The notes beneath the pieces are model-generated. The model saw nothing but the letters and a program-made list of their open reading frames with translations. It had not been told where the DNA came from and did not search any database. A stretch of DNA of 64,000 bases from Rhododendron vialii. Lineage: Eukaryota; Streptophyta; Magnoliopsida; Ericales; Ericaceae. Location: positions 32,701,001-32,765,000 of the forward strand of contig NC_080568.1 of NCBI RefSeq assembly GCF_030253575.1. The letters run 5' to 3'. The position numbers and the translations under genes were made by a program. This document shows positions 18,131 to 44,093 of the stretch, piece after piece; the stretch's first letter is position 1, and every line of letters starts with the position of its first letter.

Positions 18131-18132
18131 TA

Positions 18133-18401: not shown

Positions 18402-18475
18402 GTTCCTAGTCTCTAAAGTTTAGAAAGTGCCTTTTTTTAAATCTCAGTTTCTTTTGTTGGTGCATGAACTCTTTC

Positions 18476-19543
18476 ATGGAACTCCTTCCGGGCCTACCAA
18501 ATGACGTCGCCCTTGAATGCCTAATTCGCATTCCTCTTGACCAAATCTCCCTGGCTGCCTCCGTATGCAAAGGTTGGAAGGCCGAGATTGAGCTGCCGGA
18601 GTTTCGTCGGAGTCGGAAAAAAGCCGGGTTTGTCCGATCGGTCATAGTGGTGGCACAAGCTTGGATATACCCGACCCGACCCGCCCACCTTGCAATGCTT
18701 TCAGGGCCTCCTTTTTATCGACTCGCTATCTGCGACCCGAAAACTGAGTATTGGTCTGAGTTGCCGCCGGTGCCAGGGTTTTTGGACGGGATACCAAGGT
18801 TTTGCCACCTTGTCGGAGTTGGATCGGAGCTGGTGGTGATAGGCGGTTGCAATCCATTCTCGTGGCAGGTTTGCAATTCGGTGTTTATTTACAACTTCCT
18901 CTCTGCCACGTGGCGTTGTGGAACCGATATGCCAGGTGGGCAAAGATTATTCTCTGGATGTGATTCTGATTTTGTTCAGATGGTGTACGTTGCGGGTGGT
19001 CATGACGAGGACAAGAACGCTTTGAAATCTGCATTGGCATATGATGTGGTAAAAGATGAATGGATCCAATTGCCTGACATGGCGAAACCACGAGAGGAGT
19101 GTAAAGGTGTTTTTCACCATGGTAAGTTCCACGTCATCGGTGGGTACCCCACTGAGAGCCAAGGCAGTTTCCAGCGAGATGCCCAAGCGTTCGATGTGGC
19201 CACTTGGCAGTGGGACTCGGTACAAGACGACTTCTTAGAAGCTGCCGCGTGTTCGACGACTTGCGTGGAGGGTGGTGATTCGCGGCTGTACACTTGCCAT
19301 AACAACAATGTGACTGTGCGTGATGGTGCCGCTTGGCAAGTCCTAGCTGGACTACCAGCTGAGTTGTGCAACGTTGCTCACGTGGCAGCGTGGCAGGGGA
19401 AGTTGCTAGTGATTGGTTCCGGAAGATCTGGTGGGCCCCACACAGCCTATGTGATGGATTTGAAGAATTACAAGTGGACAAAAGTTGTTGTACCAGAAGA
19501 ATACTCGGGCCATGTGCAATCAGGTTGTTGCTTGGAGATTTAA
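18476..19543 (+). CDS. KMD-type F-box/kelch protein, copy 1
   Basis: Intronless, 355 residues from the MELLPGLPNDVALECLIRIP start; an additional in-frame ATG at 18464 (MNSF...) is unique to this copy and would add four residues. Residues 1-45 are the F-box with the family's opening MEL(I/L)PGLP; the rest holds kelch-type repeats with GG and W marks (VVIGGCNPFSWQ, VYVAGGHDEDKNALKSALAYD, FHVIGGYPTESQGSF, LLVIGSGRSGGPHTAYVMD). The family (Arabidopsis At1g80440, At1g15670, At2g44130, At3g59940) acts in SCF complexes against type-B response regulators and phenylalanine ammonia-lyase; that role here is inferred from family. Intact. Closest neighbours are the copies at 29365 and 38743. Confidence 0.93.
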   Translation: MELLPGLPNDVALECLIRIPLDQISLAASVCKGWKAEIELPEFRRSRKKAGFVRSVIVVAQAWIYPTRPAHLAMLSGPPFYRLAICDPKTEYWSELPPVPGFLDGIPRFCHLVGVGSELVVIGGCNPFSWQVCNSVFIYNFLSATWRCGTDMPGGQRLFSGCDSDFVQMVYVAGGHDEDKNALKSALAYDVVKDEWIQLPDMAKPREECKGVFHHGKFHVIGGYPTESQGSFQRDAQAFDVATWQWDSVQDDFLEAAACSTTCVEGGDSRLYTCHNNNVTVRDGAAWQVLAGLPAELCNVAHVAAWQGKLLVIGSGRSGGPHTAYVMDLKNYKWTKVVVPEEYSGHVQSGCCLEI

Positions 19544-25989: not shown

Positions 25990-26190
25990 AAGGGGTCCAA
26001 AAAGCCGACTTTTGGGGCTTTATCTTGGATATTTTAAAAAATATTTCGGTAAAAATCATTAGTATTTTTTTACTTTTCCAAATCGTCTTTGACAAGACGA
26101 ATCAATAATTCAAAAAGTAAGTAGAAAAACTAACAAGCGCAATGAAAATTTGAATAAAGACAAACTAAGAAAAAATCCAAAAATCTTAGC
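25990..26190. mobile_element. Partial foldback MITE (GACGAGAGGAATC family)
   Basis: Shows the family core (ACTTTTCCAAATCG...GACAAGACGAATCAATAATTC) and one arm (AACTAACAAGCGCAATGAAA, then TTTGAATAAAGACAAACTAAG). The other arm is missing or too decayed. Confidence 0.5.
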
Positions 26191-26370: not shown

Positions 26371-26611
26371 CAACAATTTCCAGCCACAAACACCGTAACC
26401 AGCCACAGTGCCGGATGAGTATATCTCACGTGAGATTCGTTTGGCACATTCGAGCTGTCCAATACATTTTTGGACGGTTCGGATTGAAACCCTCTCTTTC
26501 CTCTCATCCCCACACTCTCTCTCCAAATCCATGCTGTCCAAAAATGCAATGGACGGCTCAGATGCTCCGAGCGAGCACCACGTGATACCCACACAGCATT
26601 GAAAAATTGCC
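26371..26611 (-). mobile_element. hAT-like MITE, GA-rich-core family, copy 2
   Basis: In inverse orientation to the copy at 37563. It shares CACGTGGT, GAGCCGTCC, TTGGACAGC and a GAGAGAGAGTGTGGGGATGAG tract, and terminal GGCAATTTTTCAATGC versus CAACAATTTCCAGCC. The ends are more degraded than those of the other copies and I see no clean target duplication. Confidence 0.65.
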
Positions 26612-27010: not shown

Positions 27011-27248
27011 CTCGATCCGTCCCACTTTGTTCAGTCTGTTTCCTTTTTGAAACATCCCAAAAAATTGTCTATATCTCACAATCTATAATGTTTTTTATGA
27101 TTTCGAAAACTTTGTTTAATAAAATAAATTGAGATCTATCAAACAAGATCCATATTAAATATATAAAATATTATAGATTGTGAGATATAGACAATTTTTT
27201 GGGACGTCCAAAAAAGAAAACAGACAGAACAAAGTGGGACGGAGGGAG
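27011..27248. mobile_element. Stowaway MITE 1
   Basis: TA duplications at 27009-27010 and 27249-27250. The termini CTCGATCCGTCCCACTTTGT and ACAAAGTGGGACGGAGGGAG are Stowaway (Tc1/mariner) ends. Inner arms ATTGTCTATATCTCACAATC and its complement make a long hairpin. Confidence 0.92.
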
Positions 27249-27552
27249 TATGGTTTTAGACCAAATTTTCGGATTCATAGTGCTGTGAATTTGAATCATT
27301 CATTTTCTTTCATGGACTGGATTCTGGCCCCTTTCAGCTAAGGTTCTTATTTTTTAAGTACGTATTTTTCGCTTTACGAGATAAGTCATTCTCTCACGAT
27401 CCACCATCTTTAATTATAAAAAATAAATACTTGTATTTAGTTGGTGGAACAGATCCTTCACTTATCTATCATTTTTGTTACAAAAAGAGGAAAGAGACAA
27501 AGATATAAAGCTTCAACTGCCACTCGGGCAGAATTACAACTTGGAGTACTAT

Positions 27553-27626
27553 GTTGTTGACTTGGGTATTTATGCCCAAACCTTGCATCGTTGTTGACTT
27601 GGGTATTTATGCCCAAACCTTGCATC
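27553..27626. repeat. 37-bp tandem duplication
   Basis: GTTGTTGACTTGGGTATTTA, continuing to CCAAACCTTGCATC, occurs twice in tandem. The homologous place upstream of KMD copy 3 (near 37395) has it once. Confidence 0.9.
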
Positions 27627-27629
27627 CGA

Positions 27630-28059
27630 GACAGATTCCTCTCTGAAAATACTACGAAAACATGAGAGAATCATCAGACGTAGTCCTACATTTTACTACA
27701 TTTTAAAGGTGATGTCGGTACAACAGATTTCTTATCTTTTTATACGTTTTACTACAATCGATAGACTTTGCGCTTCATATCGACTAGTTTGATGAAAAAT
27801 CACGGAGCCGACGCTGATGCAGACAAATTAATGCGGTGGGTTTGGTTTAATTGAAAAGAATTTGGCATGGAGATGACACAATTATATTTCCTCTTGCTTA
27901 GCAGATTAACATACTCAGAAGCTTACGGAAGCAGTGATTTGGATCTGTCGGCCGGTTGACTCTGAAACCCACACCCAACTTGCCACTTGGCGTTCACCAG
28001 TTGGATAGTAATTAGTACGTTATTTTTTTTAATTTTTTTTTGACAAGAATTAGTACGTT
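27630..28059. other. Start of KMD2-side duplicated block
   Basis: No gene. Aligns from about 27552 with 37390-37830 (GGAGATGACACAATTATAT, AAGCTTACGGAAGCAGTGA, GGATCTGTCGGCCGGTTGAC). The unoccupied target TGAAACCC of the MITE at 37563-37790 is at 27963-27970. Confidence 0.6.
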
Positions 28060-28640
28060 AGTTTGTGTTCCTAAAAAAACAAAAAACCTTGGTTTTGTCC
28101 TCATTTAAAAAAAATATCGCTTACGTTAGTTTTGCACCAAACTTTTACGTATTATGCGCTCGTCTTGAAGAGAGGAATTGGAAAAGTAAAAAATTATGAC
28201 TTCCACACAAATATTTTGTGAAATACTCCCTCCGTCTCATTTTCATTGTCTTTTGTTCTGTTTGTCCTTTTTTTTTTTATGTTTTTCCCTATATCTTTTA
28301 GTGTGGATCTTGAAAAATATGCAATATAGATCTTGATTAATAAATCTCGATTAGTTCTATAATACAAAGTTTTCAAAATTATGAAAAACATTATATATTG
28401 AAAGATATAAGTAATTAAAAAATAGCACTCAATTCAAAAATGGACAATGAAAATAGGACGAAGGGAGTAAATATCAAGAAAAACCAGAAAAGCTGACTTT
28501 TTTATTTTATTTTTCTTGAATATTTACCCAAATATTTGTGTAGATGTCGTAATTTCCTCTCGTCAAAACGAACGCACAATACATAAAAATTTGTCGCAAA
28601 ATTAATACATATGCAATTTTTTTTTTCAATGACGACGAAA
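28060..28640. mobile_element. Foldback MITE interrupted by a Stowaway
   Basis: Arms around CGCTTACGTTAGTTTTGC...GAGAGGAATTGGAAAAGTAA on the left and GTAATTTCCTCTCGTCAAAA...TTTGTCGCAAAATTAATAC on the right are inverted copies. A Stowaway MITE (28226-28467) sits at the apex. The uninterrupted relative is at 37877-38277. Confidence 0.75.
28226..28467. mobile_element. Stowaway MITE 2, nested
   Basis: TA duplications at 28224-28225 and 28468-28469; ends CTCCCTCCGTCTCATTTTCA and TGAAAATAGGACGAAGGGAG. The matching empty TA is at about 38055-38056 in the paralogous foldback upstream of KMD copy 3. Confidence 0.9.
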
Positions 28641-28849
28641 TCAAAAAATTATTGCCAACAAGTGGTATTTTTTTTCTCCCACGTACGCCATTGACTTTAA
28701 CAGAACTGATCCATTTTTAAAAAAAATATGTTCGCTCAATTATATGTTAAAAGGCACATGGGAATCTCCTTTGGTACTAATTGTTCGGTTAATAGTCAAA
28801 TGTCTTTTTCTTTTTTCTTTTTTTTTTCTTATTCAATTTTTTTTGTGCA

Positions 28850-29115
28850 TTTGTTAGTTTTTATTAATTTTTTATGGATTATTAATTCTTCTTGACGAGA
28901 GGAATCTAAAAAATAAAAAATTACGATTGAAACCTAAATTTTTGAATAAAAAAAAAATAAGTCAATTTTTTCGTCTTTATTCAAAATAATTTGGGTTTTG
29001 ATCATTATTTTGTACTTTTTAGATTCTTCTCGTCATGACGAAGCAATAATTCACAAAAAGTTAACGAAAAATTAATAAACAGGAAAAAAATTTGAATAAG
29101 AAAAAAAAATTAAGA
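28850..29115. mobile_element. Foldback MITE specific to KMD copy 2 upstream
   Basis: Inverted halves: GTTAGTTTTTATTAATTTTT, then CTTGACGAGAGGAATCTAAA on the left, and TTTAGATTCTTCTCGTCATG, then AAAAATTAATAAAC on the right. Absent from the upstream regions of KMD copies 1 and 3 at the corresponding place (CATGGGAATGGCCATT... in copy 3). Confidence 0.75.
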
Positions 29116-29244
29116 AAATTATTTGCAATGGCCATTCGTATGGTCTTAGCCACAGGAATCTGCCTCTCTCCATTAATACTCTCCTAAAACAACCATTCCC
29201 CGCAGCACAACATTTATGCAGAGTTTTATCTCCAAGCAATCTCT

Positions 29245-29252
29245 TTATATAT
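29245..29252 (+). promoter_or_regulatory. TATA-like box, KMD copy 2
   Basis: TTATATAT in CTCTTTATATATGCATACAC, about 40 bp before the CT tract and 120 bp before the ATG. Confidence 0.5.
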
Positions 29253-29286
29253 GCATACACATTCTTGAACTTGTTTCACACCCCAA

Positions 29287-29306
29287 CTCTCTCTCTCTCT
29301 CTCTCT
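29287..29306 (+). repeat. (CT)10 in KMD copy 2 leader
   Basis: Shortest of the three homologous CT tracts. Confidence 0.85.
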
Positions 29307-29364
29307 GAAGTTTAGAAACTGCCTTCCCAATCTAAGTTCCCTTCTTTGGTTCTTGAACTCTCCC

Positions 29365-30432
29365 ATGGAACTCATTCCGGGCCTACCAAACAACGTCGCC
29401 CTTGAATGTCTTATTCGCATTCCTTTCGATCAAATCTCCGTTGGCTCCGCCGTATGCAAAGGTTGGAAGGCCGAGATTCAGCTACCAGAGTTTCGCCGGA
29501 GTCGGAAGCAGGCTGGGTTGGCCCGATCGGTCATAGTGGTTGCACAAGCTTGGCTATTCCCGACCCGGACCGCCCACCTTGCAATGCTTTCGGGGCCTCC
29601 TTTTTATCGGCTCGCTATCTGCGAGCCAGAAACTGGGTATTGGTCTGAGTTGCCGCCGGTGCCAGGGTTTCCTGACGGGATACCAATGTTTTGCCACCTC
29701 GTCGGGGTCGGATCGGAGCTTGTGGTGATAGGTGGTTGCGACCCATTCTCGTGGCAAGTCTCTAATTCGGTATTTATTTACAACTTCCTCTCTGCCACGT
29801 GGCGTTGTGGAACCGATATGCCAGGTGGGCGAAGATTATTCTCTGGGTGTGCTTCAGATTATGTCCAGATGGTGTACGTTGCAGGTGGTCATGATGAGGA
29901 CAAGAACGCTTTGAAATCCGCATTGGCATATGATGTGGTAAAAGATGAATGGATCCAATTGCCCGACATGACGAAATCACGAGAGGAGTGTAAAGGTGTT
30001 TTCCACCATGGCAAGTTCCACGTCATTGGTGGGTACCCCACGGAGAGCCAAGGCAGTTTCCAGCGAGATGCCCAAGCGTTCGATGTGGCCACTTGGCAGT
30101 GGGACCCGGTACAAGACGACTTCTTAGAAGCTGCCACGTGTCCGACGATTTACGTGGAGGGTGGTGATTCGCGGCTGTACGCGTGCCACAACAACAACGT
30201 GACCGTGCGCGATGGTGCCGCTTGGCAAGTCCTGGCTGGACTACCAGCTGAGTTGTGCAAGGTGGGTTTCGTGACAGCGTGGCAGGGGAAGTTGCTCGTG
30301 ATTGGTTCGGGGAAATATGGTGGGCCCCACACAGCTTATGTGATGGATTTGAAGAATTACACATGGACAAAACTAGATGTACCGGATGAATACACGGGCC
30401 ATGTCCAATCAGGTTGTTCCTTGGAGATTTAA
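29365..30432 (+). CDS. KMD-type F-box/kelch protein, copy 2
   Basis: Intronless, 355 residues, starting MELIPGLPNNVALECLIRIP; the upstream in-frame codon is TTG, so 29365 is the first ATG. It has the same F-box and kelch layout as copies 1 and 3. Copy-specific changes include the F-box segment VGSAVCKG (VAASVCKG in copy 3), RRLFSGCASDYVQ for QRLFSGCDSDFVQ, TIYVEGG for TTCVEGG, and a C-terminal YTWTKLDVPDEYTG for YKWTKV.VPEEYSG. All kelch glycine pairs are retained and the frame is open. Expected role: substrate adaptor of an SCF ligase in cytokinin or phenylpropanoid control, by family. The leader has the shortest CT tract and an extra foldback MITE about 250 bp upstream. Confidence 0.93.
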   Translation: MELIPGLPNNVALECLIRIPFDQISVGSAVCKGWKAEIQLPEFRRSRKQAGLARSVIVVAQAWLFPTRTAHLAMLSGPPFYRLAICEPETGYWSELPPVPGFPDGIPMFCHLVGVGSELVVIGGCDPFSWQVSNSVFIYNFLSATWRCGTDMPGGRRLFSGCASDYVQMVYVAGGHDEDKNALKSALAYDVVKDEWIQLPDMTKSREECKGVFHHGKFHVIGGYPTESQGSFQRDAQAFDVATWQWDPVQDDFLEAATCPTIYVEGGDSRLYACHNNNVTVRDGAAWQVLAGLPAELCKVGFVTAWQGKLLVIGSGKYGGPHTAYVMDLKNYTWTKLDVPDEYTGHVQSGCSLEI

Positions 30433-31625
30433 AATCCATATAGGCCGCAACAAAATTGTTTGTCTTTCACACATTTGTGTAAGAAGTTTTCTGTTTTCCT
30501 CCCTTTAATTCTCCTTCCTTTTGACCAGTGATGATTGAAGCAATCCAAGCCTAGATTTATTCTCCCTTTTGACCAGGGATTGAAACAATCCAAGACGCAC
30601 TGTTTGGGCCCCTGCAGTCTGGCCATTGATTATTGATGGATGACTATTTATATATTGTAGAGCTCGTCGATTAGAATCACTTAGTCACATTGATCGAATA
30701 CCACTTATTTCCTAAAATTGGAGCGCATTTGTCTGGTAAAAAATGTGTTGCGCACACTATATTATAACTTGAAGAGATAAATGTGCTTTTAGATCAGGTG
30801 TTGATTTTTATTCAATCAACTTGATTTTTTTTTGCAACAATGTTATTTACACAATAATTCAAACATAACAACTTACATAACATCTCACATATATGTGGAG
30901 TTCACACATAGTAATGTGTGAAATGTTGTGATATATATCATTTTTGTTTGTTGTGATAGTTCTAAACAACGAGGTCTACAACATCGATGAGTCCGATCAT
31001 CGAAGTGGACCCCGAAATGGAATCATAGATGGCTGGACTGCACTCTGTTCAGTCCACTTCCAATCAGAGCTGGCCCTGATTTTTCGAGATTTAAAAGCAT
31101 ATATATTAGAGATGAGACCTTTCTTTTGTATGGTACCCCTAAAATATGTAAATTTTCGGAGGCCTAAAATGGCCGGAGCTCGACTCTGCTCGATCGCAAC
31201 CTAAGAGAAGCCACCTAGCTCCTATGTAAAATTGTCTTACGTCTACGAAAGACTCGTGTGACATGTGCGTGGGCATGTGTGTACAAAGGCATGGTCGGAA
31301 TTTTAATATATTGAGTGACATACAGCCCAATTAACCTCCTAGTTTAGCTCCCTTAATACTATGCATGGTACAATGCACCTCAATTAACAATATTAACCTT
31401 CACGCCAATCTATGATTTCTTAACCTTAAAAGTTTATGTCGTACGAAACAAGTCCACAATTATTTATAATTAAGCCTATATAATTACTCTGCCACTTCTA
31501 AGCCATAACAATTAGTATAATTAAGCCTATATAGTTTAACAGTAAACAAAAACAGCACCTAGTTGGATAATGAACATTTGATTGTCGTCGTGGTGGCGAC
31601 AGCGGCCACTTTCCCCACTTGGTGT
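30433..31625. other. 3' flank of KMD copy 2 (duplicated block)
   Basis: No gene. Aligns with 39811-41350 beyond KMD copy 3 (GACCAGTGATGATTGAAGCA, AAAATGTGTTGCGCACACTA, TAAATGTG.TTTTAGATCAG, GCATGGTCGGAATTTTAAT). It holds unoccupied sites for the LINE tail at 40189-40438 (TCACATTG at 30685-30692) and for Stowaway MITE 3 (TA at 31391-31392). Confidence 0.6.
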
Positions 31626-31631
31626 CAGGGA

Positions 31632-31822
31632 TGGATGCAAGATTTCAAAATTAAGTGCGGGAACATTACGTAAACTTATAGCATATGAAAGGCAATGTAA
31701 GCTTGGTCAATATAAGTTGGCGTTAGGAACGGATATGCAAGATTTCAAAATTGAGTGCGGAAACATTACGTAAATTTATGGCATATGAAGAAAGGCAATG
31801 TAAACTTCGTCAATATAAGTTG
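31632..31822. repeat. ~106-bp diverged tandem repeat
   Basis: GCAAGATTTCAAAATTAAGT to GTCAATATAAGTTGG is repeated once with small changes (second unit from about 31738, with an added AAG). No equivalent is visible beyond KMD copy 3. Confidence 0.75.
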
Positions 31823-31829
31823 TAAAGAT

Positions 31830-32471
31830 ATATACCATCAAGACTATTCTTACATATATAAGCAATCAAAGTATTGCTAAAAATAACATTATTTTTCTCA
31901 AAACTATTGGTTGGACACGTGTTGAGTTGTTTAAAATAACGATTTTAACGTTTTGAAATAAAAAAACCTACTTTAATTCTACTAGAAATTTGAAACGTGG
32001 GTAGGACGGTTGCCCGAGCTCATCCCGTCCTTTGGTCGTCCTAACTTGGCCTCATTTGCAGCGTGGACGTGATCAAATGAATGTGTGGTTCTATTGTACC
32101 ATTGAACAAGATTGCTACTCCATTATATAAAAAATGTAGCAAGATTGTGTTAAATCAGTTGGATTTGGATTTGTCATCAGTGGAATCATCAAATTATTGG
32201 AATTGCTTGGGAGACAAGAAATTGAACTCCTAACGCACACCAGGACTCAACTTACATATATATGCATATAATATATATGTTCCGAACATGTCGTGTGTTT
32301 CACTAACTAAAATATATACTTATATTTTTAATTAAAGTGATGTATAGTGAGAGAATGACTTATCTCGTAAATCGAAAAATAAGTACTTAAAAAATAAAAA
32401 ATTTAACGGAACAGGGTCTTAGAGTGTTCTAGAGAATGAATCACACGAACAAATTGATAGTATAACTACGG
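31830..32471. other. Intergenic, copy-2-side block
   Basis: No gene. The last part (CTTAGAGTGTTCTAGAGAAT...ATTGATAGTATAAC) aligns with 41398-41450. Confidence 0.4.
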
Positions 32472-32686
32472 ACCAGGGGTTGTGCTGTGCACCAGTAGGT
32501 TTACTGGTGCACAACACGGTGCTGTGCGATCTCAACCGTCCAAAAGTGTTATGGATGGTCCAGATTTTTAAAAACTTTTCTGGGAACTCTTCCTCGAAAA
32601 AGTTTCATTTTAATCCGGACCATTGATTACTGAGACGGATGGTCCAAATGGTGCAAAGCACAGTCCCCGCTTCGCTAAATTTTAGA
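32472..32686 (+). mobile_element. MITE with GGGGTTGTGCTGTGCACCA ends
   Basis: Near-terminal GGGGTTGTGCTGTGCACCA (left) and TGGTGCAAAGCACAGTCCCC (right) are imperfect inverted repeats. The element is present on the KMD2 side and absent on the KMD3 side, where ATTGATAGTATAACCAAAT is directly followed by AGAATAGACATCTTAACAAT (41440-41475). Confidence 0.7.
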
Positions 32687-32994
32687 ATAGACATCTTAAC
32701 AATTTTTGTTCGTATTGTTGACATTGTTAATTGGTAGCTCAACTGCTCAAGGGTGAACCCCCCTGGCATTATACAGAGACCCCCATCCTATAGTGTATTA
32801 TTACATGATGCGACTTTTCGTTAATTAATCTCTCGTTTTAATTAAGGTTGGAGCTACCCTGAAAACTTCTTCACCTAGCTAGCTAGGAATAGCACCGTTG
32901 ACTTTTGCAAATTGAGTTTAGTTTCCAACAAACTTGATGTTTATGTTCAATGATGATATTGAATGCAGAAATTGTAGTTCAAAAGCAAACGCAG
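32687..32994. other. End of KMD2-side block
   Basis: Aligns with 41455-42120 minus a MITE. Contains the unoccupied target GTTCAATGATGATATT (32945-32960) of the MITE at 41672-42089. No gene. Confidence 0.5.
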
Positions 32995-34018
32995 ATGGTG
33001 GCGTTTTTGCCTGCCGCAGGAGGAACAGAAAAGGAACGTGCCATAGACATAGGGAGAGGATGCAGTAAATTTATGAACAGAAACGTGGCTTCTGATTTTA
33101 TGTTCTTCCGTTTGGGTAACTAGTAAGTGGTCAGATTTTGACTAAGCCCCAGCATTAGACTCTTTTTCCAAATCGAAACCTCATGAATTCCAAGTGTTTC
33201 ATGTTTTATGATGAATCGCCTTAACTGCTTAAATCTGCCCTTTTTTGGTGTAGGTTTGTTGCGTTTGATTGGCAAAATAAGGAGAAAATGATGAATTGAG
33301 GCTGCAGCAATTAACCTTGCCAGCTCCCATTTTGTAAATATATATGAGCTGGTTGACGAGAGCGATGGGAATGCATCACCATCGGCAAACAAACTCCAGC
33401 CCTCACCAGAGTGAGAGGAGAACTATGGATATATTTTTTGATTTCTGTACCTGGAAAGTGGTATTGGAGCAGGCTTCCAGCAGAAATAATTCCAGTACAT
33501 AGCCGGTGGTCATGACAATGACAAGAATGCCCTGAAATCTGCGTTGGCATATGATAGTGGTGAAAAGATCAATGGATCTGATATCCTGACATGGCGAAAG
33601 CGCGAGAGGATCGAAGGTAAAGATGTTTTCCACCAAGGTAAGTTCTACGTCATCAGTGGGTACCCTACCAGGATGCAAGGCCTTTTCCAGCGAGATGCCC
33701 AAGAGTTCGATGTTGCCACTTGGCAGTGGGACTCGGTACAAGACGACTTCTTAGAAGCTGCCATGTGTTCGACGACTTGTGTGGAAGGCGGTGATTCGCG
33801 GCTATACACGTGCCATAACAACTGGACTACCAGCTGAATTGTGCAAGGTGGCTTTCGTGACAGCGTGGCAGGGGAAGTTGCTAGTGATTGGTTCCGGAAA
33901 TTCTGGTGGGCCCCACACAGCTTATTTGATGGATTTGAAGAATTACAAGTGGGCAAAAGTTGTTGTACCAGAAGAATACTCGGGCCACGTCCAATCAGGT
34001 TGTTGCTTGGAGATTTAA
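32995..34018 (+). pseudogene. Chimeric RING-KMD pseudogene
   Basis: From about 32995 to 33497 the sequence follows the RING gene from within exon 3 (GATGGTGGCGTTTTTGCC) through intron 3, exon 4 and about 60 bp past its stop. At 33495-33505 it switches to KMD codons (GGTGGTCATGACAATGACAA, i.e. AGGHDNDKNALKSALAYD) and continues to the KMD stop at 34018, with KMD 3' flank beyond. Both halves are dead: the RING part has lost zinc ligands and has insertions, its first Cys pair reads with a stop shortly after, and the stop region lies between the two parts. The KMD part has shifts near 33555-33610 and a deletion removing the NNVTVRDGAAWQVLA segment near 33825. The C-terminal 60 codons (33840-34018) are open. 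No F-box is present. Confidence 0.88.
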
Positions 34019-34059
34019 AAATCCATAGGCCGCAGCTAAACTTTTGTTCATGTATAGAT

Positions 34060-34447
34060 GAGTCCTGCTACCGGTACAGATTTTTGTGCATAGATTGTGC
34101 ACAGATTTCGTTGTGGGGCCCACCACGGGTCCCACACAAATCATCCAAGCCGTTCATTAAATGTAAAATATTTTTTCAAGGGTCTCCGTAAAAAATAAGC
34201 TCAATCCAATATCTATAGGTGCTTCATCCAACTATCTAGCTTTTCATTCAGATTTTCGGATAATGAAAAGTTATACGATTGGATCGAGCATCTATAGGTA
34301 TCGGATTGAGATTATTTTTTACGGGAACCTTTGAAAAAATATTTTACATTTAATGAACGACTCGGATGATTTGTGTGGAACCCGTGGTGGACCCCACAAC
34401 AAAATCTGTGCACAATCTGTGCACAGATTGTATGTGTGTGTAGCATT
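34060..34447. mobile_element. Mutator-like foldback MITE, copy 1
   Basis: Long inverted arms (~170 bp each): CACAGATTTCGTTGTGGGGC...AAATCATCCAAGCCGTTCAT on the left and ATGAACGACTCGGATGATTT...GTGCACAATCTGTGCACAGA on the right. The loop has CTATAGGTGCTTCATCCAAC. Near-identical to 41672-42089. The homologous place after KMD copy 1 (about 19580) is unoccupied. Confidence 0.85.
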
Positions 34448-35095
34448 TGCACAAATGTAGGCAACTCGCCAAACCCTTTTCCTCTGGTAATTATTCAGAG
34501 GTCTGAGGGTAAGTTTCTCCTTTTTGTGTGGTTCTAAGGATATACGTTTGTATCGAATCACTGTAGAAGTTTTCCTCTTTTTCTTTCTCCACCAAATACA
34601 TGGTTCGGTCGAGAATGAGGAGGCGTGTATGAAATTAGTTGGAACAATTTCTTAACGAGTTATTCCATGGTTCGGTAGAGAATGAGGAGGTAAGATTTTT
34701 GGTTAAACGAATCATTTATGATGACACTTTGAAAAGTAACGATTAGAATCAACAGTCTAAAGCTTTATTTTTTGTAAACTATAAACTATAATGTTTGTAA
34801 ATTAGCGCATGTAGTGACTAAGTAGTTGATTTAAAAGATTTTGCAAGTATTTTATTCTATTCTTAAAAAAAAAAAAAAAGAAGAGAAAGGTTAAGTTCCT
34901 TTCATTTCAACACTATTGAGTGACTTACCCAAAAAAAAAAACCTATTGAGTTTTTTTGTGACACAATCCTAATTTTATTTAAAATACTATATATGCGAAA
35001 ACTTAAAATTCTGTCACCACACTTGGATTGGAAATAATTTTTATTGTCTACGATAATTTAGAGAAACCGATCAGAGACCAAATATTGTTGTGTGC
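34448..35095. other. Intergenic, nothing recognised
   Basis: The first ~150 bp are KMD 3' flank (like 19590-19760); GGTTCGGT.GAGAATGAGGAGG occurs twice (34604 and 34669). No gene. Confidence 0.4.
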
Positions 35096-35109
35096 AGCCG
35101 TGAATAACT

Positions 35110-35225
35110 GTTTTTTTTTTGTCAAATGTGAGAAAATTATATTGATAAACGTCCAACGGCACTTACAAAACAAAGATCATTACAAAAGAATTTGGACAAA
35201 GCCAAACTAATCGTTTAACTGTGGA
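35110..35225 (-). mobile_element. Short L1-type LINE tail insertion
   Basis: A 14-bp target duplication AGCCGTGAATAACT flanks it (35096-35109 and 35226-35239), with poly(A) on the minus strand (T run after 35109). The 3' end reads ATATAATTTTCTCACATTTG before the A-run on minus, typical of plant L1 tails. Confidence 0.85.
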
Positions 35226-35239
35226 AGCCGTGAATAACT

Positions 35240-36130
35240 ATTTACGGACGTGAATCGATCCGGAAAAATTTCATTAAAATTTGAACTGTCCAATGCCGAA
35301 ACCGAATGCCAAAACCGACAGCTGATGTCATTCTTCTAGAGTACTAGTACGAATCAGTGTCGGCAGGCAGAGATATTTTCCCGAAATGAAACGTTTGGAA
35401 AATGGAACCAAATACTCTCCAACTGGTTTGGGTGCTCCTTCAATGCCATAAATACTGGGTAGTTGTATTATGGTAGTAGTAGTATATATGAGGTGTACTG
35501 TTCACGGCCACCAGCACCCTCTCTTTCTTCTACCGGCAAACCCCCTCTCTCTCTTCTACCGGCAACCACCATTTCCCACACAAACTCCTCTCACACCTCT
35601 CTCCCTCTTCCTCCCAGCCGAATACCGCCCTCGATCTCGCACGCAACTTTGATCGTCAGACCACCACCTCCTCCGGCGAGTCACCCCCTCCGGTGAGCCG
35701 TTTCATTTCAGTAAACATGCACCTCCACCGTATCACCATTACCACCCTCGATCACCTACTGCCAACGCCATCACCACCCGAAATAGCACCACCACCGTGC
35801 ACTCACCCAACCACCACCACCACAACATTACCACCTATCGGTATCACCACCACACCCGACCCCAGAGATTTTCGAGGCCCTAGGCAGGATTTGAAAATGA
35901 GGCCTCTCATGTGTACGTATAGTATATAATGTAACTTTTCAATATGAGAAGCTAATTTGGGTCTTGAAGTTAACAATATGGACACCTTCTCAATCTATAG
36001 GAGAAAATGCATTAACCCCTCGCATTTACGACGCGTAGACTTTTTTTCTTTTTTCTTTTTGCCAAGTATATATCAGTGGAGGTTAAGGGGAGTTAGGAGA
36101 CTAGACCATAAGGGTTCCAAAGGCTCCACA
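35240..36130. other. C/T-rich region, no gene recognised
   Basis: About 35510-35860 is rich in CCACC/CTCTC and gives proline- and histidine-rich frames in two phases, none with domain character. The part around 35864-35930 (TTTCGAGGCCCTAGGCAGGA...ATGAGGCCTCTCATG) resembles words at 31075 and 40735, probably fragments of one repeat. Confidence 0.4.
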
Positions 36131-36134
36131 GCCC

Positions 36135-36235
36135 TGGACCACACAACGCTCCTCATGGGGCTTAAACACTATCCTCCCACAAGGAAAGGAACATGAGATG
36201 CCATTGGGCTACAAGCCCGTTGGCCGACGTGGAGA
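36135..36235 (-). mobile_element. tRNA-like SINE head (tentative)
   Basis: On minus, GTAGCCCAATGGCATCTC fits a pol III A-box (TAGCCCAATGG) like that of the sequence at 61370. The B-box is weak. Tentative. Confidence 0.35.
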
Positions 36236-36419
36236 CTTTTTTTCTGTCAATCAGTAGGAGAGATCATTACGTCATATAGGAAACACAAAATACAAACATG
36301 AGGCACTACATCAATTATATTGTATGAGAGTATACGAGATAACTAAGCCCCATAACTCAACTACTACAAGCCCTCATTAGGGGAAGAAATAATCTCAACA
36401 AAAGAATACCCATACGCAG

Positions 36420-36505
36420 GTAAAAAAACTTGAACTCTTGACCTCCTAATGTGATGCAAGAGTCCTGACCAGCTAAACCAGTTGGTTAGCTAATGTGTAG
36501 ACTTG
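36420..36505 (-). mobile_element. tRNA-like SINE head (tentative)
   Basis: On minus, TTAGCTGGTCAGGACTC followed ~20 bp later by AGGTCAAGAGTTCAAGTTT resembles A- and B-boxes. Tentative. Confidence 0.4.
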
Positions 36506-36616
36506 AAGGGCATTGGTCTTTCTTAATTTTCAGATTACAGAAAAGAAACAAGATATAAAGGTTCTACTGCCACAGAGTCAGAATTACAACTTACAGTATA
36601 TATATATATATATGGC

Positions 36617-36980
36617 GGTTCAATAGACAACTATTTACACATTTAAAAAAACACATCATAGTTCCTGATCAAATTTTGATGATCCGAGCCACTCAATGTG
36701 ATCAGAACGTGATTTTAAGGGTACTTGCGAGAAATCAGCAAAAAAAAGACCGAAAAGGCTTGATCTGAGCGGTTTTTAGCTTAAATTTAATGAACGGTTC
36801 AATTAAAAACTACTTAAAACAAGCACTTCTCGGTCATTTTTTTTTGCTAATTTCACGCGGGCACCCTTAAAATCATATTCTGCACACATTGAACGATTCG
36901 GATCATAAAAATTTGATCGGAAACTATGTGATTGAGATTTGGGGTATTTTTTTAGGTGTCTAAATAGTTGTCCATTGAAC
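36617..36980. mobile_element. Long-arm foldback element A
   Basis: GGTTCAATAGACAACTATTTA at the left mirrors TAAATAGTTGTCCATTGAAC at the right. Inner arms (GATCAAATTTTGATGATCCG / CGGATCATAAAAATTTGATC) and ATTTTAAGGGTACTTGCG/CGCGGGCACCCTTAAAAT are also paired. It is embedded in a (TA)n tract on both sides. Confidence 0.8.
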
Positions 36981-37048
36981 AGTCCCGATATATATATATA
37001 TATAATGAGTCCCCTCCAAGTAAGAATATCCTCATTTAAATAAAATAC

Positions 37049-37342
37049 GGACGTCCCCTTTTCTCATCTTTTCCAATCAAATTTCGATGATCCGAGCCGC
37101 TCAATATGTTCAGAACGTGATTTTAAGTGTACCATATGAAATCAGCAAAAAAAATTACCAGGAAGGGCTTGATTTGAGCAGTTTTTATTTGAACCGTTCG
37201 ATAACATACAAACAAAAACTGCTCGGATTAAGCCCTTTCTGGTCTATTTTTTTGCTGATTTCTCGTGGATACCCTTAAAATCACGTTCTGAACATATTGA
37301 CCGGCTCGGATCATCGCAAATTGGTCTGAAAAGAAACGCCCT
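37049..37342. mobile_element. Long-arm foldback element B
   Basis: Related to element A: arms ATTTCGATGATCCGAGCC...AACGTGATTTTAAG and CTTAAAATCACGTTCTGAAC...CGGCTCGGATCATCG. Outer bases GGACGTCCCCTTTTCTC / AGAAACGCCCTTAAC are less well matched. Lies ~70 bp from element A. Confidence 0.7.
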
Positions 37343-37562
37343 TAACTTAATAAGTTAAAGACGCCCTTATTGAAAGTTTTCTATATATGTGTGTGTTGTT
37401 GACTTGGTTATTTATGCCCAAACCTTTCATCCGAGACTCCTCTGCGAAAATATGGAATGGAAATGACATAATTATATTCTCTTGCTTAGCAGATTGTAAC
37501 AGACTCTCAGAAGCTTACGGAAGCAGTGACTTGGATCTGTCGGCCGGTTGACCCCGAAACCC

Positions 37563-37790
37563 GAGGAATTTTTGAGTGCCAAACGGACACCACGTGGTAC
37601 TCGAGTAGCGCATTCGGGCCCTCCGTTTCGGTTTTGAATTGGACAACTTGAATTTAGAGAGAGAAAATGAGAGAAAGAGGAGATAGAGTGGTGAGATGAG
37701 AGAAGAGAGATAATTTCAATCTGAGCCGTCCAACACACTTTTGGACGACCCGAATGCGCTAGTATCCACCCGGCACCTAAAAATTTCTCA
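37563..37790. mobile_element. hAT-like MITE, GA-rich-core family, copy 3
   Basis: Ends GAGGAATTTTTGAGTGCC and GGCACCTAAAAATTTCTCA are inverted repeats. The 8-bp target duplications are CGAAACCC (37555-37562) and TGAAACCC (37791-37798). The paralogous block near 27963-27970 has a single TGAAACCC followed by ACACCC, i.e. the pre-insertion site. The interior has GAGAGAAAATGAGAGAAAGA and two GGAC.GCCG/GAGCCGTCC words. Confidence 0.92.
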
Positions 37791-37876
37791 TGAAACCCAC
37801 ACCCGACTTGCCACTTATCTATCCTTGCTTGTTGTAGAATATTTAATTCTTGTGTGTGTAAACCTATATTCAATTA

Positions 37877-38277
37877 GGGGCGTTTTCACTAAACAATAAT
37901 TAAGTTGTTGACAAACAACTTTTTGGTTTTGTTCTTATTCAAAAAATTCGCGTACGTTAGTTTTGTGCCGAACTTTTATGTATTATGCGTTTGTCTTTAC
38001 GAGAGGAATCGAAAAAGTAAAAAATTATAACTTTTACACGAGTATTTTGTGAAATACCAAGAAAGAACCCGAAAAGCCAACTTTTTTGGTTTTTCTTAGA
38101 TATTTTCTAAAATACTTGTGTAAAAAAAATAACTTTTTATATTTTCGATTCCTCTCGTTTATACAAATCCGTAATACATAAAAAAGTTTTTCGCAAAACT
38201 AACATGCAAAAAAAAATATATATATATATTTTGAGTAAAGACAAAATTAAAAAATTGTTGTTCACAACTTATTGCCC
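37877..38277. mobile_element. Foldback MITE (GACGAGAGGAATC family), uninterrupted
   Basis: Outer ends GGGGCGTTTTCACTAAACAA and TTGTTCACAACTTATTGCCC. Inner arms TTTACGAGAGGAATCGAAAA / TTTTCGATTCCTCTCGTTTA. Homologous to 28060-28640 without the nested Stowaway. The corresponding place upstream of KMD copy 1 (about 17945) lacks the element. Confidence 0.78.
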
Positions 38278-38540
38278 TGAACAAGCAAAAGTATGACATT
38301 GACATGGAAACCAATTGGATTTTTTTTTTTTGTCCCACGACTTAAACAGTAGTTATATACTAACATGGTATTTTTAACAGAACTGATCCATTTGTTTTAA
38401 AATATGTTGCTCAATTATACTAGTATGTCAAAAGGCACATGGGAATGGCCATTTCTATGGTCTTAGGCTCTTTAGCCACAGGAATCTGCCGCTTTCCATT
38501 AATTCTCTCTCAAAACAACCATTCCCCGCAGCACAGCATG

Positions 38541-38548
38541 TATATATA
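38541..38548 (+). promoter_or_regulatory. TATA-like box, KMD copy 3
   Basis: TATATATA in CATGTATATATACGCGCAG, about 75 bp before the CT tract. Confidence 0.45.
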
Positions 38549-38613
38549 CGCGCAGAGTTTTAATCTCAAAGCAATATTAGCCAGTAAACATTCTCGAACT
38601 TGTTTCACGCCCC

Positions 38614-38615
<2 letters not shown>

Positions 38616-38668
<53 letters not shown>
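38616..38668 (+). repeat. (CT)~26 in KMD copy 3 leader
   Basis: Longest of the three homologous CT tracts; preceded by CACGCCCCAA as in the other copies. Confidence 0.85.
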
Positions 38669-38671
<3 letters not shown>

Positions 38672-38742
38672 TTTTGTTGTCTCTGAAGCGTAGAAACTGC
38701 CTTTACAAGCTAAGTTCCCTTCTTTGGTTCTTGAACTCTCTC

Positions 38743-39810
38743 ATGGAACTCATTCCCGGCCTACCAAACAACGTCGCCCTTGAATGTCTTATTCGCATTC
38801 CTTTCGATCAAATCTCTGTGGCCGCCTCCGTATGCAAAGGTTGGAAGGCCGAGATTAAGCTACCCGAGTTTTGCCGGAGTCGGAAGCAGGCTGGGTTGGC
38901 CCGATCGGTCATAGTGGTTGCACAAGCATGGATATACCCGACCCGAACTGCCCACCTTGCAATGCTTTGGGGGCCCCCTTTTCATCGACTTGCTATCTGC
39001 GAGCCAGAAACTGGGTATTGGTCTGAGTTGCCGCCGATGCCAGGGTTTCTTGACGGGATACCAATGTTTTGCCACCTTGTTGGGGTCGGATCGGAGCTTG
39101 TGGTGATAGGTGGTTGCGACCCATTCTCGTGGCAAGCCTCCAATTCAGTGTTTATTTACAACTTCCTCTCTGCCACATGGCGCTGTGGAACCGATATGCC
39201 CGGTGGGCAAAGATTATTCTCTGGATGTGATTCAGATTTTGTTCAGATGGTGTACGTTGCAGGTGGTCATGATGAGGACAAGAACGCTTTGAAATCCGCA
39301 TTGGCATATGATGTGGTAAAAGATGAATGGATCCAATTGCCCGACATGTCAAAACCACGAGAGGAGTGTAAAGGTATTTTCCACCGTGGTAAGTTCCACG
39401 TCATCGGTGGGTACCCCACGGAGAGCCAAGGCAATTTCCAGCGAGATGCCCAAGCATTCGATGTGGCCACCTGGCAGTGGGACCCGGTACAAGAGGACTT
39501 CTTAGAAGCAGCCACGTGTCCGACGACTTGCGTGGAGGGTGGTGATTCGCGGCTGTACACGTGCCATAACAACAACGTGACCGTGCACGATGGTGCCGCT
39601 TGGCAAGTCCTGGCTGGACTACCAGCTGAGTTGTGCAAGGTGGGTTTCGTGACAGCGTGGCAGGGGAAGTTGCTCGTGATTGGTTCCGGAAAATCGGGTG
39701 GGCCCCACACAGCTTATGTGATGGATTTGAAGAATTACAAGTGGACAAAAGTTGCTGTACCAGAAGAATACTCGGGCCATGTCCAATCAGGTTGTTGCCT
39801 GGAGATTTAA
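38743..39810 (+). CDS. KMD-type F-box/kelch protein, copy 3
   Basis: Intronless, 355 residues from MELIPGLPNNVALECLIRIP. An in-frame open stretch continues upstream to 38674 but without an ATG, and the F-box starts directly at 38743, as in copy 2. Kelch signatures are intact (VVIGGCDPFSWQ, VYVAGGHDEDKNALKSALAYD, FHVIGGYPTESQGNF, LLVIGSGKSGGPHTAYVMD). It is a mosaic: the N-terminal third resembles copy 2 (LPNNVALECLIRIPFDQISV, ARSVIVVAQAW, EPETGYWSEL), while the middle and end resemble copy 1 (QRLFSGCDSDFVQ, YKWTKV.VPEEYSGHVQSG). Family role as for copy 1: SCF substrate adaptor. Confidence 0.93.
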   Translation: MELIPGLPNNVALECLIRIPFDQISVAASVCKGWKAEIKLPEFCRSRKQAGLARSVIVVAQAWIYPTRTAHLAMLWGPPFHRLAICEPETGYWSELPPMPGFLDGIPMFCHLVGVGSELVVIGGCDPFSWQASNSVFIYNFLSATWRCGTDMPGGQRLFSGCDSDFVQMVYVAGGHDEDKNALKSALAYDVVKDEWIQLPDMSKPREECKGIFHRGKFHVIGGYPTESQGNFQRDAQAFDVATWQWDPVQEDFLEAATCPTTCVEGGDSRLYTCHNNNVTVHDGAAWQVLAGLPAELCKVGFVTAWQGKLLVIGSGKSGGPHTAYVMDLKNYKWTKVAVPEEYSGHVQSGCCLEI

Positions 39811-41049
39811 AATCCATAGGCCACAGCAAAATTCTGTGTCCTTTAACACATTTGTGTAACTATTCTGAAACCATTTGCATCGAATTACTGAAGAAGTTTT
39901 CCTCCCTTTATTCTTCCTTTTGACCAGTGATGATTGAAGCAATCCAAGCCTTGCTTTTTTCTCCCTTTTGACCAGTGAATATGATTGAAGCAATCCAAGA
40001 CTAGATCTATATTCTCGTTCTTGGATTGTATTGTAAGCTCACGAATCATTTTTCCTCCTTTTGTGCGACGTAGTCAACAACATATGGCGGATTATCTCAG
40101 GTTTGGTCCTGCAGTCTGGCCATTGATGATAGTATTATTGTTTATGTTGTAGAGCTCGTAAATTAGAATTACGTAAAAAGTCACATTGTTTATGTACTGA
40201 ATTTATTTCGATCTGAGTATTATTAGACTCATTTAGGTTGTTTAGGCTTCGGCCTTTTCAGGAGGGTTTCATCCCTTTTGAGTGTCCTCGATTGCTTTCT
40301 TGGCAATCGTTGGTTTGGATCTTGGATTGAGAAGATGATTGTTCTTAGAACATGATGTTGTTTCCTTACTCCTATTAGTCTTGTAACAATTTCAAGATTA
40401 ATAAATTCTTCTTCTTTTTTTGCTGTTCAAAAAAAAATTCACATTGATCGAATACCGTTTATTTCCTAATCGGAGCACATATATCTTGTAAAAAACGTGT
40501 TGCGCACACTAAATTACGTACAACATTAAGAGATAAATGTGTTTTTAGATCAGATGTTGATTTTTATTCAATCAACTTGATTTTATTTGTGATAGTTCTA
40601 AACGATGAGGCCTACAACATTAATGAGTCTGATAATCAAAGTGGACCCGAAATGGGGTCATAGATGACTAGATTGCACTTCGTGCAGTCTACCCTCAATC
40701 AGAGCCGGCCCTAATTTTTTTAGGATAAAACATATATATCAGAGATGAGGCCCTTTCTTTTGGTTGGTACCCCTAAAATATGTAAATCTTTGAAAGCCTA
40801 AAGTGGCCGCCACTCGACTCTGCTCCCAACCCAAGAGAAGCCACCTCCTATGTAAAAAATTGTCTTTTGTGTGTGTGCATGTGTGCGTACAAAGGCATGG
40901 TCGGAATTTTAATCTATGAGTGACATACATATATATGTCAGCAACGAGAGCCTGTCGCCTGTCGCACGTTGTTTTAGTCGAACTTCCTAGTTTAGCCTAA
41001 ATATGCTACAATGCCAGGTAATACTAATGCCATGCCGCAAATTACAATA
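39811..41049. other. 3' flank of KMD copy 3 (duplicated block)
   Basis: Aligns with the KMD copy 2 flank except for a LINE tail (40189-40438). No gene. Confidence 0.55.
40189..40438 (+). mobile_element. L1-type LINE tail insertion
   Basis: TCACATTG occurs at 40181-40188 and 40439-40446 around an insert that ends in AATAAATTCTTCTTC and an A-run (GTTCAAAAAAAAA). The KMD2-side paralogue has the site once (30685-30692, TCACATTGATCGAATACC). Confidence 0.85.
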
Positions 41050-41283
41050 CTTCCTCCGTCCCATTTTCTGTCCTTTTTTGATATTCGTATCAATTTTCAA
41101 TTGTTTATATTTTCTAATATGAATCTTCAAAAATATGCAATATAGATCTTGTTTGATAGTACTCGATTAGGCCTATAATACAAAGTTTTCGAAATTATGA
41201 AAAACATTGTAGATTGGGAGATATAAGCGTTTAAAGATCGGCACAAACAACGAAAATAGACAATCAAAATGGGACAATGGGAG
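41050..41283. mobile_element. Stowaway MITE 3
   Basis: TA at 41048-41049 and 41284-41285; ends CTTCCTCCGTCCCATTTTCT and AAAATGGGACAATGGGAG. The KMD2-side paralogue is unoccupied at 31391-31392 (ACAATATTAACCTTCACG). Confidence 0.9.
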
Positions 41284-41671
41284 TATTAACTTTCACGCGG
41301 GTGTTGCAATCTATCATTTTTTAATTAATCCGAATGACCTGTTTCGTAAAGCAGAAAAATAAGTACTACTTAAAATACAAGAACCTTAGCGGAACGAGGT
41401 CTTAGAAAGTCCTAGAGAATGAATAACGTGAACTAATTGATAGTATAACCAAATAGAATAGACATCTTAACAATACTATATATGTATTAATTGTTGATTA
41501 TACAGATCACGGGGTCTTAGGTACAGTGTATTATTACATGATGCGACTTTTAGCTAATTAATCTCTTGTTTTAATTAAGGTTGGAGCTATCCTGGAAAAC
41601 TTCTTCACCTATGAATAGCACCATTGACTTTTGTAAATTGAGCGACAAACTTGATGTTTTGGTTTAATGAT
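41284..41671. other. Duplicated block remainder
   Basis: Aligns with 31393-32950 on the KMD2 side with several indels, including absence of the MITE found at 32472-32686. No gene. Confidence 0.5.
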
Positions 41672-42089
41672 GAGAGTCCTGCTACCGGTACAGATTTTTT
41701 GCACAGATTGTGCACAGATTTCATGGTGGGTCCACCACGGGTCCCACGCAAATCATCCAAGCCGTTTTTTTTTTGAAAGGATCTCCAAGCCGTTCATTAA
41801 ATGTAAAACAATTTTTCAAGGGTCCCCGTAAAAAATAAGCTCAATCCAATACCTATAGGTGCTTCATCCAACCATCTAACTTTTCATTCAGATTTTCGGA
41901 TAATGAAAAGTTATACGATTGGATCGAGCATCTATAGGTATCGGATTAAGATTATTTTTTACGAGGACCCTTGAAAAAATATTTTACATTTAATGAACGG
42001 CTCGGATGATTTGTAAGGAACCCGTGGTGGGCCCCACAACAAAATCTGTGCACAATCTGTGCACAGATTGTATGTGTGTGTAGACTTTC
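41672..42089. mobile_element. Mutator-like foldback MITE, copy 2
   Basis: 9-bp near-identical target duplications TTTAATGAT (41663-41671) and TGTAATGAT (42090-42098). Ends GAGAGTCCTGCTACC and TGTAGACTTTC; ~170-bp inverted arms as in 34060-34447. The unoccupied site is TTCAATGATGATATT at about 32946-32960. The 9-bp duplication suggests a Mutator-like element. Confidence 0.88.
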
Positions 42090-42149
42090 TGTAATGATGA
42101 TATTAAAGGCAGAAATTTTAGCTCAAAAGCAAATGCAGAGTATTCTAGG

Positions 42150-42913
42150 TGTGCACGAGAGGACTCGGGATTTGAATTCGAGGGGCCAAACCTAAATCAC
42201 ATAACCTGCAGGCGGGTATGGGAGCGTGAGTGTAAAAACGCCTTTTAAAAAACCTCCCAAATAACTAAAATCCGTGAGTACGTACAAGAAGTGAGAGCAC
42301 AAGTGCAGAACAAAAATTAAGAGTGTGAATGAAGGCTATTTTACAGAATTATGTGACTAATGGCCAAACTATGAGAGGAATTTTTTCATACAAAAACAAA
42401 TTAATTCAGAATCGTAACAATACGAACTATACTCACAAAATACAACATAATAGATACTTAAATCTCGTGTAATGAAAATGAATAGGGTAGTTATTTTCAC
42501 ACTCCCTTCTTTTTATAACTACACTTCATTTTTTGTCATCTTATGATGTGAATTTACAGTGTTGTCCTTCCCAAGTGTAAAAGAGTATATAAATGAAATG
42601 TTAATTTTGTAAACTCACATCACAAGAGAAAAAAGTACATAAAAGAGGAGTTTGAGAATCAATTACCAAATGAATATGGCCTATAAATCGCAATATTTAG
42701 GACAAAATTCAGAACTATATATAATACTACGAACTTTACTAGTTTGAAAAGTTTGAGATGTTGCTCATGATCACGTACGTGCATTATGTAACTTATAGAG
42801 TGCGACTACATATCCTATGGGTGCATATTCTTTCACTATGCTTTTATGGAAGCTAAAAACTTTAACAAACAATTTATGAACTGGTTAGTCCCGTCCAACC
42901 AATATCATCTGAG

Positions 42914-43352: not shown

Positions 43353-43470
43353 GCTTTAGATGGGTTGTATTGTATGATGTTAGAAAATGCATTGAAATTT
43401 TTGGGTCTAGAAAATATATAGTGGTATTTCTGTTGCTTTTGGTGTGGTTTGAATGGTCAAAAATGATAGA

Positions 43471-43727
43471 GGTACAGAAATTTTGGGACCGAATCCGGAC
43501 CGACGGCCGCCGGCGAGCCATCTCCGGCCAGCGGACGGCCGATCCGAGCCGTCCAAAAATTCTAAAAAAAAAAACCGAGGGGCCCCTACGCGGGAATCAA
43601 CGTCATCCGAGGTGTGTAGGGTGCTTGATCGGAGCACCCCTTTTCGTATGTGTATATGTATATCCGGTGGCCGGAGATGGCTCGCCGGCGGCCGTCGGTC
43701 CGGATTCGGTCCCAAAATTTCTGTACC
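43471..43727. mobile_element. GC-rich foldback MITE, copy 1
   Basis: Near-perfect terminal inverted repeats of ~60 bp: GGTACAGAAATTTTGGGACC, then GAATCCGGACCGACGGCC, at the left and the complement ending TCCCAAAATTTCTGTACC at the right. Unusually GC-rich for the window (CCGGCGAGCC, GGCCAGCGG). Non-coding. Confidence 0.88.
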
Positions 43728-43820
43728 TGTAGTGTTACTCTTGAATGGTACATCGTATGCCTAACATTTGAGAGTAGTACTTATAGAGCACAGATGATGG
43801 AGAGTTTCTGTCCAGAAAAC

Positions 43821-44093
43821 CTATAGATACCGACGGCTCCCTCGCAGAAATCGTATCGATGGCCAAGTCGGGCCGTCTCCGGCCACTGGACGACCGATCC
43901 GAGCAATCCAAAAATTCTATTAAAAAAAACGAGGGGGCCCATGCAGGAATCAACAACATCCGATGTGTGCAGGGTGCTTGATCTAAACACCCTATTTTTC
44001 GTGTATATATGTATGATCGGCCGTCCGGTGGCCGGAGACAGCCCGGCATGGCCGTCGGTACGATTTAGGTGAGGGAGCCGTCGGTACCTATAG
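43821..44093. mobile_element. GC-rich foldback MITE, copy 2
   Basis: Ends CTATAGATACCGACGGCTCC and GGAGCCGTCGGTACCTATAG; shares GGGCCGTCTCCGGCCACTGG, CCAAAAATTCT, GAATCAAC...CATCCGA.GTGTG and AGGGTGCTTGATC with copy 1. Different outer ends, same internal family. Confidence 0.82.

Follow-up and report, generated by a model that had tools for sequence, protein, structure and literature searches.

Transposon insertions and small deletions in the flanks of tandem kelch-repeat genes of Rhododendron vialii

Stowaway elements, a group of miniature inverted-repeat transposable elements (MITEs), are classified as Tc1/mariner-like, and the length of the target duplication helps to sort other families: 9 bp is typical of Mutator-like (MULE-derived) elements and 8 bp of hAT elements. 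Reading an empty site in a paralogue is an established method to recognise such insertions. In Brassica rapa, insertions of the Stowaway element BRAMI-1 were compared with non-insertion paralogues, and there a MITE in one paralogue facing an empty target in the others confirms both the insertion and the TA duplication (PMC3626606). Here, we describe a similar situation in 64,000 nucleotides of Rhododendron vialii DNA (hereafter the window; contig 12, 32701001-32765000, G+C content 39.2%; assembly of 532.6 Mb in 13 contigs), which carries several copies of a kelch-repeat gene. Unlike BRAMI-1, one family followed in the syntenic blocks of a triplicated genome (PMC3626606), the window offers tandem copies and several families, and what first seems an empty site resembles a deletion in one case. 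All transposon behaviour at this locus is ordinary.

Very probably, blocks 2 and 3 of this locus owe their present form to local duplications followed by independent insertions and small deletions. According to this scheme, the kelch-repeat gene would have been duplicated locally, first yielding copy 1, and a later duplication would have produced the sister blocks that contain copies 2 and 3 (the three copies are c1, c2 and c3 in Table 1). The non-coding flanks of both blocks would then have received, independently, non-autonomous DNA transposons unrelated to one another and a single retroposon fragment, and would have suffered small deletions. Among the gene copies, 2 and 3 are sisters and copy 1 is the outgroup. 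The two sisters are separated by a synonymous divergence (dS) of 0.153, compared to 0.264 and 0.273 between copy 1 and either of them, and at coding sites where one copy is the odd one out it is copy 1 at 62, copy 2 at 35 and copy 3 at 27 (all three differ at 4). A generic rate of around 7e-9 substitutions per site and year would put the split between copies 2 and 3 at some 10 million years ago. The ratio of non-synonymous to synonymous divergence (dN/dS) of 0.17-0.26 between the copies makes the genes look constrained. Pfam Kelch_1 scores above its cut-off in all three intact copies (E = 5.6e-24 in copy 1), and an F-box is hinted at in copy 3 only (1/3), with 19.7 bits against a cut-off of 20.5. 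The name KMD, taken over from the earlier note, is used here as a candidate name only, and orthology to Arabidopsis KMD1-4 would be putative. A genome-wide protein search revealed no further close copy among the matches listed, the next being two contig 8 genes with 67% and 55% identity.

An earlier note on this DNA had described two paralogous blocks, and a pairwise alignment bears this out. Since MAFFT scattered the flanks to the point where insert ends could not be placed, a two-piece affine alignment was used instead, in which 27550-32995 and 37386-42139 are collinear end to end. Identity amounts to 87.5% in the non-coding parts (1697/1939 aligned positions) and to 93.8% in the coding region; the Kimura two-parameter (K2P) distance between the flanks is 0.137, i.e., about 6.9% per copy since the duplication. 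The copy-2 flanks gave no match in any of 12 controls, which were plus-strand stretches of 3.6 kb with starts between 45000 and 58200, and BLAST of the non-coding parts returned 21 pieces, at least two of which are off-diagonal, transposon-to-transposon matches. The block limits proposed previously (27552-32990 and 37400-42130) are near right, but homology starts further left, at 27488 and 36539, because 27488-27548 matches 36539-36598 at 82% across another copy-3-only insert. All seven inserts listed at that time are present near the coordinates given for them. Their ends can be kept for 28226-28467, 40189-40438 and 41050-41283, and are shifted for the four others: in copy 2, the foldback to about 28780-29108 (from 28850-29115) and the MITE to 32469-32674 (from 32472-32686); in copy 3, one MITE to 37563-37789 (from 37563-37790) and the Mutator-like MITE to 41674-42091 (from 41672-42089).

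Post-duplication transposition is supported for four copy-3 inserts, one of which is the Mutator-like MITE at 41674. Its perfect 9-bp duplication faces a single copy of CAATGATGA in copy 2 (32948-32956), one base off the duplication. The element ends predicted from this empty site have identical 9-bp flanks in 22/30 loci fetched from the genome (the 22 include the window copy and one locus in an A run), compared to 0/90 at offset controls. The flanks of the remaining eight loci show between 3 and 7 mismatches over the 9 positions, and in four of these loci (L018, L030, L036 and L037) the matches end 1 to 6 bases before the element end. The 30 loci are the best-scoring of 40 scored among 2693 candidates and are thus biased toward window-like copies. 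The 9-bp duplication would place the element among the Mutator-like MITEs, which the window elements with such duplications also resemble in their long, near-palindromic body. With respect to the consensus of the other 29 fetched copies, the 41674 element differs at 12/390 positions (K2P 3.15%); the median for these 29 relatives is 1.3%. The earlier note had suggested comparing the divergence of the flanks with that of each MITE from its family, and in this case the 3.15% contrasts with about 6.9% per block copy, so that the element is probably younger than the duplication. A second family member, in the decayed fourth gene copy, differs from the family consensus at 11/388 positions (2.9%). 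Read from the letters, this member is without a target duplication; a few bases seem to be missing from its right end, and the adjoining sequence is lost relative to copy 1.

Two of the other copy-3 inserts belong to different classes. The retroposon tail is flanked by an 8-bp duplication, TCACATTG, at 40181-40188 and 40439-40446, which occurs once in copy 2 (30685-30692); an A-run precedes TCACATTG, so that both a poly-A tail and a target duplication are present. The Stowaways at 41050 and, in copy 2, at 28226 are both TA-flanked with CTCCCTCCGT-like inverted terminal repeats and, at about 240 bp, differ in nothing notable from Stowaway MITEs in general. The divergence of about 24% between these two was considered as a clock and rejected, the 41050 copy being at a K2P distance of 0.27 from the 28226 family consensus, which puts the two in different subfamilies. 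Statements on families draw on the window for the 32469 MITE, the retroposon tail and the foldbacks F1 and F2, and likewise for the 41050 Stowaway, together with the comparison to the 28226 family. For three of the copy-3 inserts the partner site in copy 2 is single-copy without extra bases, in answer to the question of excision footprints raised before.

The copy-3 element at 37563 had been labelled hAT-like. It has symmetric ends, GAG...CTC, and in the window copy the 9-bp flanks have diverged (7/9). Five of 12 sequences reach nine bases past the right end, the other seven being too short. In these five (L079, L080, L081, copy 3 and a window relative at 7.9-8.1 kb), the 9-bp flanks agree at 8/9, 8/9, 6/9, 7/9 and 9/9 positions, respectively. 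The adjoining 8 bp agree at 4, 2, 2, 4 and 0 of 8, i.e., at no more than 4/8, and the hAT label is therefore not supported. If one odd base is left out on the right, 8 bp agree at 7, 8, 6, 7 and 8 of 8, and the ninth flank base agrees in only 2/5 sequences. As the 9-bp register does better than the adjoining 8 bp, the element is more likely Mutator-like, and an hAT-type 8-bp duplication plus an odd base on the right is disfavoured. Relatives of this MITE within the window lie at 7.9-8.1 kb, where the 9-bp flanks are identical, and at about 26444-26608.

In copy 2, a nested insertion suggests an order of events. The foldback F1 is found in both blocks but not in copy 1, where 17948^17949 joins directly, and in copy 2 only it is interrupted by the 28226 Stowaway. 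The likely order is hence the split of copy 1, insertion of F1, duplication of blocks 2 and 3, and arrival of the Stowaway. Four further bases (AATA) lie alongside the Stowaway in copy 2 and none in copy 3, whose partner site has no extra bases and no excision footprint; precise excision from copy 3 is possible. Among eight loci of this family (window copy counted), TA is found on both sides in six, but not in L007 and L008; the genome search covered 40 scored places of 3090 candidates. For this Stowaway and for the 32469 MITE, a candidate PIF/Harbinger-like element by its 3-bp duplication, insertion after the duplication is plausible; here we infer rather than demonstrate.

A number of observations weigh against the scheme as a whole or against one of its steps. 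Copy 1 covers few insert sites, and consequently most directions are read from target duplications alone. The 41674 consensus was built from the most window-like copies, which could make this element look younger than it is. The 28226 Stowaway and a consensus of 27 relatives are 9.5% apart (K2P), i.e., more than the 6.9% per block copy; of the 21 differences, however, only 8 are private, which corresponds to 3.4% (95% interval 1.5-6.5%), so that the dating is compatible with insertion before or after the duplication. For the 32469 MITE, the partner site is off by a further 3 bp, and its duplication of 3 bp is a short one. Two of the nine coding windows (120 bases each, the last 105) place copy 1 nearer to copy 2 or copy 3 than these are to each other, with 0.950 for copies 1 and 2 versus 0.925 for copies 2 and 3 in one and 0.962 for copies 1 and 3 versus 0.905 in the other. 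Finally, at the site of the copy-2 foldback F2, copies 1 and 2 share about 34 bp of flanking sequence that is missing from copy 3.

This last point leads to the alternative that deserves most attention, namely that some inserts are older than the duplication and have since disappeared from one of the copies through excision or deletion, in which case part of the one-sided pattern would reflect loss and not gain. At the F2 site, copy 1 reads through, with flank matches at 62/83 and 57/74 positions, and the copy-3 junction offers a 3-bp AAT repeat as microhomology for a deletion. In view of the lost flank, the preferred reading of the copy-3 site is a deletion scar, the true empty site being that of copy 1; this reading relies on short, diverged flank matches, to which BLAST on the same stretch assigns 2.2e-8 and 1.6e-10. 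The deletion could have taken the flank alone or the flank together with F2, and F2 may thus be older than the block duplication. Loss is also indicated 3' of the genes, where copy 1 (19754-19825) matches 39992-40066 at 71%, which means that copy 2 has lost the counterpart of 40009-40066 at least. The total divergence of the 28226 Stowaway, above that of each block copy, points the same way. However, three copy-3 inserts have a single target in copy 2 with zero extra bases, and the 41674 MITE at 3.15% is too close to its family to predate the duplication comfortably. On balance, we regard loss as a possible but rather doubtful account of part of the pattern. The claim that the inserts record transposition after the duplication is supported for the four copy-3 inserts, is plausible for the copy-2 Stowaway and the 32469 MITE, and is not supported for the copy-2 foldback; likewise, the empty targets said to be readable in the partner block can be read for three copy-3 inserts, but probably not for the foldback.

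Gene conversion between the copies could in principle have moved or erased inserts. Coding identity does exceed flank identity, and small conversion patches could possibly lie behind the two discordant coding windows. However, copies 2 and 3 differ at 27/161 fourfold sites (16.8%), which, like the dS of 0.153, is in line with the K2P of 0.137 in the flanks; the higher coding identity is accounted for by a dN/dS of 0.26, no coding window of this pair exceeds an identity of 0.967, and the discordant patches lie in the coding region, away from the inserts. Conversion is therefore a highly unlikely cause of the one-sided inserts. An assembly artefact, with collapsed or chimeric haplotypes, is hardly credible given that the assembly consists of 13 contigs, the ones inspected measuring 34.8 to 49.1 Mb, and that the copies are about 12% apart outside the genes, which we judge to be above the expectation for haplotypes.

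Independent insertion in duplicated blocks, together with small deletions, remains the preferred explanation, and the foldbacks merit a further comment. F1, F2, 13315-13570 and about 25997-26184 are related. F1 forms a long hairpin in copy 3, far stabler than 100 shuffles (z -18), and a scan of the window with Rfam gave no match at gathering scores. One might imagine the region upstream of the kelch gene as a recurrent target of one family of foldbacks (F1, F2 and elements nested within F1), whose long hairpins would alter the promoters of copies 2 and 3, e.g., via small RNAs, and so aid divergence of expression; we consider this very improbable. Two further related foldbacks, absent from the earlier list, occur in copy 3 only, and the first has a TA microsatellite on both sides, possibly the mark of a microsatellite-targeting element. 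MuTAnT elements of Medicago are reported to target TA microsatellites (PMC4486113), a likeness by description only and to be taken as a lead.

Table 1. Coordinates of the kelch-repeat gene copies, duplicated blocks, inserts and one-sided stretches in the window
Feature	Position	Strand	Remarks
Gene copy 1 (c1)	18464..19543	+	Intact kelch-repeat open reading frame, 359 aa; outgroup to c2/c3
Gene copy 2 (c2)	29365..30432	+	Intact kelch-repeat open reading frame, 355 aa
Gene copy 3 (c3)	38743..39810	+	Intact kelch-repeat open reading frame, 355 aa; weak F-box match, sub-threshold in Pfam
Decayed 3' half of fourth gene copy	33495..34599	+	Holds second member of 41674 MITE family (34060-34447)
Duplicated block, copy 2	27488..32995	+	By alignment
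Duplicated block, copy 3	36539..42139	+	By alignment
Foldback F1, copy 2	28079..28661		Interrupted by Stowaway; extent matching copy 3, true edges may lie outward
Foldback F1, copy 3	37876..38278		Single long hairpin
Stowaway MITE	28226..28467		Copy 2 only; at TA inside older foldback F1
Foldback F2	28780..29108		Copy 2 only; copy 1 empty at 18103^18104
Terminal-inverted-repeat MITE	32469..32674		Copy 2 only; CTA both sides, single CCA in copy 3
Two related foldbacks	36598..37385		Copy 3 only; TA microsatellite on either side of the first
Probably Mutator-like MITE (earlier: hAT-like)	37563..37789		Copy 3 only; 9-bp flanks CCGAAACCC / ATGAAACCC; copy-2 site CTGAAACCC
5'-truncated poly-A retroposon tail (LINE-like; long interspersed element)	40189..40438	+	Copy 3 only; 250 bp
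Stowaway MITE	41050..41283		Copy 3 only; TA duplication; intact copy-2 empty site ACAATATTAAC
Mutator-like MITE	41674..42091		Copy 3 only; TAATGATGA on both sides (41665-41673, 42092-42100) as perfect 9-bp duplication
Copy-3-only stretch	40009..40100		At least 40009-40066 matched in copy 1 3' region
Previously unlisted copy-2-only stretches	27652-27862, 30831-30950, 31426-32352		211, 120 and 927 bp; by alignment
Previously unlisted copy-3-only stretches	36598-37385, 38261-38359, 40009-40100		By alignment

The remainder of the window contains other traces of duplication and transposition. Upstream of copy 1 are a local duplicate pair, 8620-9704 and 16513-17327 (81% over 8937-9704), and a recent 69-bp tandem duplication at 18128-18265 (98.6% identical). 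Between copies 1 and 2 lies a young long terminal repeat element (20641-24924), with 648-bp repeats 99.5% identical and a 5-bp target duplication, TGGTC. The truncated fourth gene copy is joined directly, with a 3-bp overlap, by a decayed fragment (32994-33497) resembling 11444-12050, a candidate RING-type gene by eye. To the right of block 3, direct repeats about 83-87% alike (42155-42634 and 44173-44557) enclose two foldbacks, 43467-43731 and 43821-44093. Further Stowaway-like elements are found at 27019-27249 and 52521-52735, and a complex of tandem and inverted repeats at 54454-55094 matches itself in many registers.

Taken as a whole, the locus is a neat example of how transposons turn over near tandem genes, and one that is polarised in part. 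Exact ends have been gained for an abundant family of Mutator-like MITEs, that of the 41674 element. There is also a lesson for the method: with two copies alone, a deletion can mimic an empty site, and it takes a third copy to reveal it.

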